Shown: positions 40,791 to 43,539 of the stretch, piece after piece
Position numbering within the stretch: position 1 is the first letter of the stretch
Layout of the letters: each line of letters opens with the position of its first letter
Assembly: GCA_913062605.1 (NCBI GenBank)
Contig: CAJXWQ010000002.1
Span: 130,761-194,760, forward strand
Length of the DNA: 64,000 nucleotides
Origin: an uncultured Cellvibrionales bacterium
Lineage (GTDB): Bacteria > Pseudomonadota > Gammaproteobacteria > Pseudomonadales > Porticoccaceae
Direction: 5' to 3'
The notes under the pieces: model-generated
Seen by the model: only the letters and a program-made list of their open reading frames with translations
Databases searched by the model: none
Told to the model about the DNA's origin: nothing
Position numbers and translations under genes: made by a program

Positions 40791-40889
40791 TTCACTGATG
40801 TCTGACCTGTCGGCGACTGGCTTACCAGCGACCGACCTATCAATGATTAATTATTCATGGGAGCAGCATCAGCCGCTCCCAACATTACC

Positions 40890-41786
40890 ATGACAGCTCC
40901 CACGCCCAAATGCCCTTACATCGGGCGCTTTGCTCCCTCCCCTTCCGGCCCTCTACATTTTGGTTCCTTGGTCAGCGCTGTAGCCAGCTATCTGGATGCA
41001 AAAGCACACAATGGCACATGGCTGGTGCGCATGGACGATATCGACCCTCCACGGGAAATACCAGGAGCTGCTGATCTCATACTGCAACAGCTTCAGCAAC
41101 ATAGTCTGAACTGGGACGGTGAGGTTCTGTATCAAAGTAAACGCAGCGAAGCCTATCTTGCCACCCTTGAAAAGCTACAACATAAGGGTCTCGTCTACCC
41201 CTGCCAATGCAGCCGGCAACAACTAAAGAAACAGGGCGGTGTTCACCCTAGTCGCTGCCAATTAAAAGACCCCTCAGCCCCTGCAGCCCTTCGATTAGCA
41301 GCACCTGTTCAGAGCCAGATTGAATTCGAGGATATCTTTCAGGGTCAGCAGAGGCAGAATATCAAGCATGAGGTCGGCGATGTCGTATTGCATCGTAAAG
41401 ATGGTCTTTTTGCCTACCAATTAGCCGTAGTCGTTGATGATGCCTTTCAACAAATCAGCCATATTATCCGCGGCAGTGACTTATTGAGCTCCACTCCCAG
41501 GCAAATCTGTCTTCAGCAACTACTGGGGCTCCCCACACCCCGATACGGGCATATACCCGTAGTAATCAACCCGGATGGCCAGAAACTCAGCAAGCAGAAC
41601 CTAACCCCTTCGATTGACGCCAAAACAGCCTCAGCGAACCTAGTCTCTGCCCTGCGCTGGCTTGACCTGCCGTTACCCAAAGCACTCTACCCTGCAAGTA
41701 GTCGTGAATTATTGAATTGGGGTGTAGAGCACTGGCAACGTAAGCTGGTACCCCCAGTAATGAAGAAGGTGACATTCAACCGATAA
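40890..41786 (+). CDS. gluQ: Glutamyl-Q tRNA(Asp) synthetase
   Basis: YIGRFAPSPSGPLHFGSLVSAVASYLDAK; CQCSRQQL; downstream of dksA. Confidence 0.95.
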   Translation: MTAPTPKCPYIGRFAPSPSGPLHFGSLVSAVASYLDAKAHNGTWLVRMDDIDPPREIPGAADLILQQLQQHSLNWDGEVLYQSKRSEAYLATLEKLQHKGLVYPCQCSRQQLKKQGGVHPSRCQLKDPSAPAALRLAAPVQSQIEFEDIFQGQQRQNIKHEVGDVVLHRKDGLFAYQLAVVVDDAFQQISHIIRGSDLLSSTPRQICLQQLLGLPTPRYGHIPVVINPDGQKLSKQNLTPSIDAKTASANLVSALRWLDLPLPKALYPASSRELLNWGVEHWQRKLVPPVMKKVTFNR

Positions 41787-41910
41787 CTTAGGTAACGTTA
41801 TTTGTAGGTAGCGTCATTTTAAGTCAAGCCATAAGAAATATAGGGTGAGATATATAGCCTTATATTTTATATGGATTTTAGTTTTGACATACCTCTTACT
41901 CTATGTAAAA

Positions 41911-41922
41911 GTTGGCGCCAAC
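41911..41922. promoter_or_regulatory. Perfect 12-bp palindrome, operator-like
   Basis: GTTGGCGCCAAC next to a possible -10 element (TATGTA, 41902-41907). Confidence 0.4.
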
Positions 41923-42052
41923 AACGAAAACTAATAAAAATAAATAATAATAATAACGTTGGATGAATTGCTAGACTGGTTGATAAGGGGAAACAAGCCT
42001 CACGACTCGATAGCATATGGGATACGGAGGAAGCCTACGGGCTTCCTTTTTT
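41914..42052 (+). ncRNA. Candidate small RNA upstream of pcnB (CrcZ-like position and A-rich motif)
   Basis: No ORF; A-rich AACAACGAAAACTAATAAAAATAAATAATAATAATAACG tract; ends in a strong intrinsic terminator; start coordinate is a guess. Confidence 0.5.
42029..42052 (+). terminator. Intrinsic terminator with UACG tetraloop
   Basis: GGAAGCC-TACG-GGCTTCC-TTTTTT. Confidence 0.9.
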
Positions 42053-42186
42053 AATGCCTATTTGTTGTGGCACTCTGTCCCCCTAATACGCCCTACTAAC
42101 CACCTAAACCCAACCTACAAGTGCCAAAAGTCTTTTCAACTCCGCTGTGCTAGAATCGCCCCTTTCCCGGCACTTGCAGCATCGAC

Positions 42187-43539
42187 ATGCTAAAAAAACT
42201 CTCTAAAATTTTCAAGAGAAACAGCCCCCCCGCAACCAACGAACCTCATATTATTAGCGCCGGGCAGCATCCGCTTTCTCCCAAGCAAATAAGTGCTGGC
42301 GCTAGAAAAGTGGTTGAGCAACTCAGCAGTGATGGCTATGAAGCCTTTTTGGTTGGGGGCTGTGTTCGCGACCTCATGCTAGGGCTGACGCCTAAAGATT
42401 TTGATGTGGCAACCGACGCCACACCAGAACAAGTCAACCAACTCTTCAGACGTTCGCGCATTATTGGCCGTCGCTTCCAAATCGTCCATGTGCGAATGGG
42501 GCCGGAAATTATTGAAGTCACCACCTTTCGCGCTCATCACACTGATAAGAAAAGTAGCCGTAATGACTCGCGCCGCTCGTCCAAGGGACTTCTATTACGC
42601 GACAATATTTTTGGTTCAATCAACGAAGATGCCAGTCGCCGCGACTTCACCATGAACGCGCTCTATTATCACCCACAAGACAACAGTATCTACGACTATG
42701 CCGATGGCTTGCCTGATATTGAACAGCAGCTCATACACATTATTGGCATCCCAGCTGACCGCTATCGGGAAGACCCCGTAAGGATGCTGCGTGCTGTACG
42801 CTTTGCTGCCAAGCTGGGCTTTCAAATTGAAAACAACACGGCGGCGGCCATTATCAAAGTTCACCAATTACTGGCTGATATTCCCCCGGCACGCCTGTTT
42901 GATGAGGTTCTCAAACTGCTAATGCACGGCCATGCATTAGCCACATTTCATTTACTCCGCCAATACCAACTCTTTGGCATCCTGTTTCCGGCTACGGAAG
43001 CAGCACTGGCTGATGACCCAGGCTACTACCTGACATTTATCGAGCAGGCGCTCACCAACACAGATAAACGCATTCGTGGTGATCAGAGGGTAACCCCCGC
43101 ATTTCTGTTTGCAGCCTTGCTCTGGCCTGCACTGAAAGAACAAGAGAAAGTGTTTAGTCAGGGCGACGTCTCACCTATATACGCCCTGCATCAAGCCGCT
43201 GGAGAGGTCACCACCAGACAGTGCCAACGAGTAGCTATTCCACGTCGTTTCACCCTCCCCATGCGAGAGATTTGGGAACTCCAACTGCGCTTACCACGCA
43301 GGGCAGGTAGCCAGGCTTTCCGGTTGATGGAGAACAAACGCTTCCGTGCTGGCTATGACTTCCTGTTATTGCGTGAGGAAACTGGAGAAATCGAATCTGG
43401 CCTGGGTGATTGGTGGACCCGCTTCCAGGATGCAGATGAACACAAACGTCAGACGATGGTCGACGCTGTGCAGCAACCTAAAAACAAGCGCCGTCGTCGA
43501 CGCCGGAAGCCACCACCCAAAAACCCTGTTCATGACTGA
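42187..43539 (+). CDS. pcnB: Poly(A) polymerase I
   Basis: EAFLVGGCVRDLMLGLTPKDFDVATDATPEQV; basic C-terminal tail NKRRRRRRKPPPK. Confidence 0.96.
   Translation: MLKKLSKIFKRNSPPATNEPHIISAGQHPLSPKQISAGARKVVEQLSSDGYEAFLVGGCVRDLMLGLTPKDFDVATDATPEQVNQLFRRSRIIGRRFQIVHVRMGPEIIEVTTFRAHHTDKKSSRNDSRRSSKGLLLRDNIFGSINEDASRRDFTMNALYYHPQDNSIYDYADGLPDIEQQLIHIIGIPADRYREDPVRMLRAVRFAAKLGFQIENNTAAAIIKVHQLLADIPPARLFDEVLKLLMHGHALATFHLLRQYQLFGILFPATEAALADDPGYYLTFIEQALTNTDKRIRGDQRVTPAFLFAALLWPALKEQEKVFSQGDVSPIYALHQAAGEVTTRQCQRVAIPRRFTLPMREIWELQLRLPRRAGSQAFRLMENKRFRAGYDFLLLREETGEIESGLGDWWTRFQDADEHKRQTMVDAVQQPKNKRRRRRRKPPPKNPVHD

Follow-up and report, generated by a model that had tools for sequence, protein, structure and literature searches.

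CrcZ, CrcY and CrcX of Pseudomonas and Azotobacter are the closest described counterparts of the RNA reported here. The CrcZ of P. aeruginosa has six (ARN)n motifs with n≥4; it attaches to the distal face of Hfq and keeps the protein sequestered (PMC4063720). The CbrB subsites TGTTAC and GTAACA have been mapped in P. putida (PMC6296734), and according to reviews only Pseudomonas and Azotobacter have the CbrAB system (PMC8871633, PMC6296734). The stated restriction is contradicted by complete cbrA-cbrB-pcnB loci that we observed in Halomonadaceae and Cellvibrionaceae (L093, L096, L089, L090, L095); most of these loci have a long A-rich RNA ahead of pcnB.

The stretch of DNA analysed here (the window, 64,000 nt; positions 130761-194760 of contig 2) belongs to a 2.17 Mb draft genome (G000) that is 91% complete. 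In the window, dksA lies upstream of gluQ, which is followed by a gap and pcnB (Table 1). The first-pass annotation had described this gap as roughly 400 bp long and without an ORF, and had suggested that, with cbrAB absent, the crcZ position is taken by an Hfq-sponge RNA that is shortened or diverged. The gap is as described (41786 to 42187, no ORF of at least 60 aa). The reading is supported, since in close relatives the same RNA directly follows an intact cbrB and is equipped with a sigma54 promoter and CbrB subsites, since the corresponding box in the window has decayed in place, and since Crc and Hfq are present. We consider that the locus quite probably encodes an Hfq decoy of the CrcZ type, compact and diverged, that has escaped control by CbrB and sigma54. 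This reading is backed at the sequence level by conservation, structure, synteny, association with sigma54 promoters and CbrB sites, promoter decay, and the presence of Crc and Hfq.

Table 1. Features of the gluQ-pcnB locus in window coordinates.
Feature	Position	Strand	Basis or remark
gluQ (glutamyl-Q tRNA(Asp) synthetase)	40857..41786	+	Pfam PF00749 tRNA-synt_1c, E 3.5e-49; upstream neighbour
Possible decayed CbrB subsites	41792..41813	+	GTAACG 41792-41797, GTAGCG 41808-41813; align with the R subsite region GGTAACA of cbrB-positive relatives
Decayed sigma54 promoter TTGACATACCTCTTACT	41884..41900	+	Homologous to TTGGCATACTTCCTGCT of G005; blastn homology from 41850
Weak candidate -10 TAAAAG	41906..41911	+	16 nt from TTGACA; TAAAGG in G010
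Small RNA, about 135-142 nt	41912..42053	+	CM R1 134.7 bits (not independent, as the training set included the window sequence itself); blastn conservation in genus; 5' end approximate
A-rich 5' tract	41920..41958	+	Two (A-R-N)4 motifs, 41933-41944 and 41946-41957; presumed Hfq distal-face sites
Conserved structured domain GGATGAATTGCTA...TAGCATATGGGATAC	41961..42028	+	Alignment A2, covariation
Intrinsic terminator GGAAGCC-TACG-GGCTTCC-TTTTTT	42029..42052	+	Strong
Extended -10 TGCTAGAAT	42148..42156	+	Likely separate pcnB promoter, 3' of terminator
pcnB (poly(A) polymerase)	42187..43539	+	Pfam PF01743, PF12627, PF12626 (PolyA_pol domains); downstream neighbour

The A-rich run and the terminator on which the earlier reading had relied are both present. 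The element holds five matches to AANAANAA against a mean of 0.27 in shuffles (p about 0.001), and thus the density of A-rich motifs is not due to chance; at least five matches occur in only 6 of 6386 sliding segments of element length along the 64 kb (step 20, some of which may overlap the element itself). Using the (ARN)n definition of PMC4063720, we counted two (ARN)4 motifs in the window RNA, one in that of the sister genome G010 and one or two among relatives, with a script that reproduces the published six in a Pseudomonas CrcZ. The structured domain consists of an outer helix GCTA/TAGC (41970-41973 with 42011-42014) and two inner helices, and the RNA folds better than shuffles (z -2.7). 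In the terminator helix (helix 4), 99% of cells are paired and both-side changes occur in 8 of 9 pairs. Our promoter/terminator scan missed this obvious terminator, presumably because stem extension swallows the T-run, and its terminator negative was disregarded.

The palindrome GTTGGCGCCAAC, also pointed out in the first-pass annotation, does lie at 41911-41922, but its conservation fails: it is absent even from G010 (GTTGCTGCCAAC) and from other relatives, and was rejected as a functional site.

Conservation in close relatives was the decisive test of the earlier reading, and the RNA is conserved there. Thirteen of the 17 genomes of the genus carry it beside pcnB, among them every one of the 12 that have Crc, and it adjoins pcnB at each examined locus that carries it. 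Twelve of the 17 were recovered by blastn; the thirteenth (G015) was spotted by inspecting its cbrB-pcnB gap. Two small genomes without Crc or CbrB (G006, G013) have a short gluQ-pcnB gap that lacks the RNA, and two others (G008, G012) yielded no pcnB locus, so that their missing RNA is uninformative. Across the family, model R1, built from 12 sequences, detects the RNA in at least 46 of 112 genomes. A search of 392 genomes of the wider order with model R2, under strict and insensitive filters, gave matches only within the present family, and at the sensitivity used the compact form of the RNA appears to be limited to this family.

The structure is backed by covariation among homologous gluQ-pcnB gaps, a check proposed with the earlier reading, in two alignments. 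In the model-aligned set (34 distinct sequences, biased towards the structure), both-side changes occur in 15 of 21 pairs versus 6.6 in shuffles, and slid controls drop to 5-7 pairs. An independent MAFFT alignment of 11 distinct sequences shows 6 covarying pairs versus 2.2 in shuffles. Most of the covariation comes from the terminator helix, with a smaller share from the middle helices. Conservation of the middle domain (GGAUGGAUUGCUA..., with GGGUGGGUUAGAUCC in genera g5 and g11) is strong and extends to genera that lost cbrB. A plain sponge does not need such conservation, which leaves room for a second function.

Most genomes of genus g11 (L185 of G091, L072-L079) carry the RNA twice in the gluQ-pcnB gap, as tandem copies spaced by about 300 nt. 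These genomes have Crc and no CbrB ortholog, and the arrangement resembles a CrcY/CrcZ-like duplication.

In nine genomes of the genus, the RNA is immediately preceded by a gene for a sigma54-type response regulator. These regulators are at least 76% identical to that of G001, which in turn is 57-64% identical to the regulator of the cbrAB loci in Gilvimarinus, Pseudomonas, Litchfieldella and Halomonas. Both this identity and the gene order (gluQ - regulator - RNA - pcnB) mark the regulator as CbrB. Throughout the family, a sigma54 -24/-12 box accompanies 15 of 15 loci with a close CbrB ortholog versus none of 17 loci without CbrB. The boxes are near-perfect (12.5-13.5 out of 14 points, a score reached by 0 of 300 shuffles) and lie 22-52 nt upstream of the modelled RNA. 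Moreover, at least one exact TGTTAC or GTAACA occurs 105-165 nt upstream in all 15 cbrB-positive genomes. The count of 15 among 112 genomes is a lower bound, as the strict cut-off misses CbrB-like genes beside cbrA or pcnB in G020, G028 and other members of genus g6.

In the window, the sigma54 promoter has decayed, and the CbrB subsites have probably done so too. The box TTGGCAT..CTGCT has become TTGACAT..TTACT, with both invariant dinucleotides changed (-24 GG to GA at 41886-41887, -12 GC to AC at 41898-41899). The decayed box is alignable in the window and in G010, and a perfect -35 TTGACA, common to the two genomes, has arisen within it. Together with the candidate -10 downstream, it makes a new sigma70-type promoter for the window RNA plausible; TTGACA with a four-of-six -10 arises in 1.3% of shuffles. 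A consensus scan upstream of the RNA found no strong sigma70 promoter and did not recover the proposed -10. Beyond the terminator, the extended -10 TGCTAGAAT, or its variant TGTTAGAAT, is retained in 12 of 12 aligned loci of the genus, and TGCTAGAAT also precedes pcnB in Pseudomonas (L091). It is likely to be pcnB's own promoter, separate from the small RNA.

As the first-pass annotation had claimed for the locus, cbrAB is absent: the whole G000 assembly (91% complete) contains no ortholog-level cbrA or cbrB of the CbrAB two-component system. The best CbrB paralog in G000 has 38% identity. At E 1e-70, a Gilvimarinus CbrA query (an SLC5-kinase) matched nothing in the 17 genomes of the genus, G000 included. 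Other genera of the family do have CbrA, next to cbrB wherever the positions were compared. In the pcnB tree, G000 and G010, both without cbrB, are nested within the cbrB-positive G004 and G005 (support 99/96, 95/86, 92/85) and are separate from G009 and G011, which also lack cbrB. This topology implies no fewer than two losses of cbrB within the genus. The loss of cbrAB is best read as one late step of a stepwise dismantling, which corrects the first-pass annotation. In the nine cbrB-positive genomes of the genus (e.g. L015, 6099-7466), CbrB is an orphan regulator, with no CbrA found.

The genome was also to be checked for crc; crc is present, and hfq too. Crc occurs in 12 of 17 genomes of the genus, with 40-48% identity to P. 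aeruginosa Crc (window genome: 44% identity, E 2e-62); the query matched PDB 4jg3 over its full length. These orthologs are ExoIII-family proteins with altered catalytic letters, as Crc should have, GNWN and SSH versus GDMN and SDH in the ExoIII paralogs, and share LQD with P. aeruginosa Crc. Hfq is encoded in all 17 genomes (E 6e-30 in the window genome). The Hfq of the window genome (L047) reads SIFLVNG against SIYLVNG in E. coli, which places F at the distal-face Y25 position, a conservative change in the A-rich RNA pocket.

The RNA accompanies Crc in 36 of 38 genomes of the family that have Crc, weakly so in G020 (E 0.05); the other two (G025, G085) yielded no pcnB locus. The RNA also occurs without detectable Crc in the draft G011 and in members of genera g6 and g14, indicating that Crc is not strictly required. 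In genus g6 (L194, L195, L186), cbrA and a diverged CbrB are kept and Crc was not found; the RNA is retained at the site in L085 and L087, and L194 and L195 have no room for it.

We propose that the locus produces a trans-acting small RNA of about 140 nt, an ortholog by position and descent of the CbrB/sigma54-driven RNA of the genus, which would be functionally equivalent to CrcZ of Pseudomonas. Once transcribed, its A-rich (ARN)n tract would occupy the distal face of Hfq together with Crc, and this occupation would relieve the Hfq/Crc translational repression of catabolic mRNAs with A-rich motifs. The 3' stem-loop and U-tail would terminate the RNA and offer a site for the proximal face of Hfq. 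In this lineage, cbrA may have been lost first and cbrB next, followed by decay of the sigma54 promoter. The RNA may now be driven by a sigma70-type promoter or by read-through from gluQ, in which case its level would be uncoupled from the CbrAB signal. Several points count against a decoy. Two (ARN)4 motifs against six in CrcZ imply a lower Hfq-binding capacity per molecule; to this are added the missing match to the Rfam CrcZ model, the genomes with the RNA and no Crc, the conserved middle domain and the weak -10.

We also entertain, as a tentative extension, a dual-function RNA in which the 5' tract acts as Hfq decoy and the middle domain has a second activity. Such an RNA could have moved from CbrB/sigma54 to a new promoter through mutation of the -24/-12 box to a sigma70 -35, while the carbon catabolite control circuit was taken apart starting at its top, with cbrA going first, then cbrB, and finally crc and the RNA together. 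If this is true, the genus displays intermediate stages in the loss of a global regulatory circuit.

The best-surviving alternative, which we nevertheless regard as unlikely, is an Hfq-dependent base-pairing sRNA whose A-rich tract merely recruits Hfq and whose GGAUGGAUUGCUA / GGGUGGGUUAGAUCC domain pairs with mRNA targets, the crcZ site then reflecting shared ancestry with changed or dual function. Conservation of the middle domain also in genera without cbrB, retention of the RNA in genus g6 and G011 despite no detectable Crc, and a U-tail and terminator typical of Hfq-bound sRNAs would all suit such a molecule. However, CrcZ is matched both by the A-rich tract and by the control through CbrB and sigma54 that relatives show, and the middle domain is partly base-paired with covariation, leaving fewer free letters for pairing. 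Less probable still is a decaying relic, in which expression of the RNA ceased once CbrB was lost and the sigma54 box was gone. The sigma54 promoter is indeed dead in the window lineage and the scan recognised no strong sigma70 promoter upstream of the RNA, but the A-rich tract, helices and terminator are intact in four cbrB-lacking genomes of the genus that represent at least two separate losses, genera where CbrB was not found (g5, g7, g11) likewise keep an intact RNA, and TTGACA is shared with the sister genome. Finally, we give hardly any credence to a cis-acting pcnB leader or attenuator, or a mere gluQ terminator with A-rich spacer and no independent RNA function: the element always lies just upstream of pcnB, and with gluQ ending only some 66 nt short of the conserved core in G009 and G011 it could there be a 3' UTR product, but pcnB has its own conserved extended -10 3' of the terminator, a dedicated sigma54 promoter directly precedes the RNA in relatives, genus g11 carries two tandem copies, and the internal domain is conserved and covarying.

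The CrcZ-type decoy remains our preferred reading. A further gammaproteobacterial family keeps CbrB, Crc and a CrcZ-like RNA together as a conserved unit. Should the proposed function be borne out, carbon catabolite control would have an RNA arm that is older and more durable than its two-component input. A single genus would then offer natural experiments (CbrB without CbrA, RNA without CbrB, neither RNA nor Crc), and an RNA of about 140 nt with two Hfq motifs could serve as a minimal sponge for testing what a CrcZ requires. No earlier report of this RNA was found in the literature searched, a scope outside which most subscription papers fall.

How does the RNA compare with known systems? The whole window has no Rfam match at gathering thresholds, and a permissive search of the gap left CrcZ (RF01675) unmatched even at E 10, returning only chance-level families; Pseudomonas loci score 350 and 272 bits against the CrcZ model. 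With CrcZ, CrcY and CrcX of Pseudomonas and Azotobacter, the RNA shares (ARN)n≥4 motifs, a strong terminator and a genome that encodes Crc and Hfq, and with CrcZ the position upstream of pcnB, between gluQ and pcnB as in close relatives ordered gluQ-cbrB-RNA-pcnB; the relatives of the window also share the sigma54 -24/-12 box and CbrB subsites. It differs from CrcZ in length (about 140 versus 407 nt), in its distinct conserved middle domain, and in lacking CbrA, CbrB and a sigma54 promoter.

Uncurated A-rich RNAs also lie between cbrB and pcnB in Cellvibrionaceae (Gilvimarinus L089/L090, L095) and Halomonadaceae (Litchfieldella L093). They resemble the present RNA in site, CbrB subsite-like letters, (ARN)4 motifs (six to eight of them) and terminator, but are 300-500 nt long and have adjacent cbrA and cbrB. 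The RNA of Gilvimarinus gilvus scores 36 bits against the CrcZ model, under the cut-off of 95, and that of G. agarilyticus weakly matches the present RNA model. CsrB, RsmY and RsmZ likewise titrate a translational repressor, a comparison made for CrcZ in PMC4063720, but their protein is CsrA/RsmA and their motif is GGA hairpins. Judged by Rfam membership and by the CbrB/sigma54 promoter, the window RNA is not CrcZ proper; by descent and design, as far as these can be read from sequence, it is CrcZ-like.
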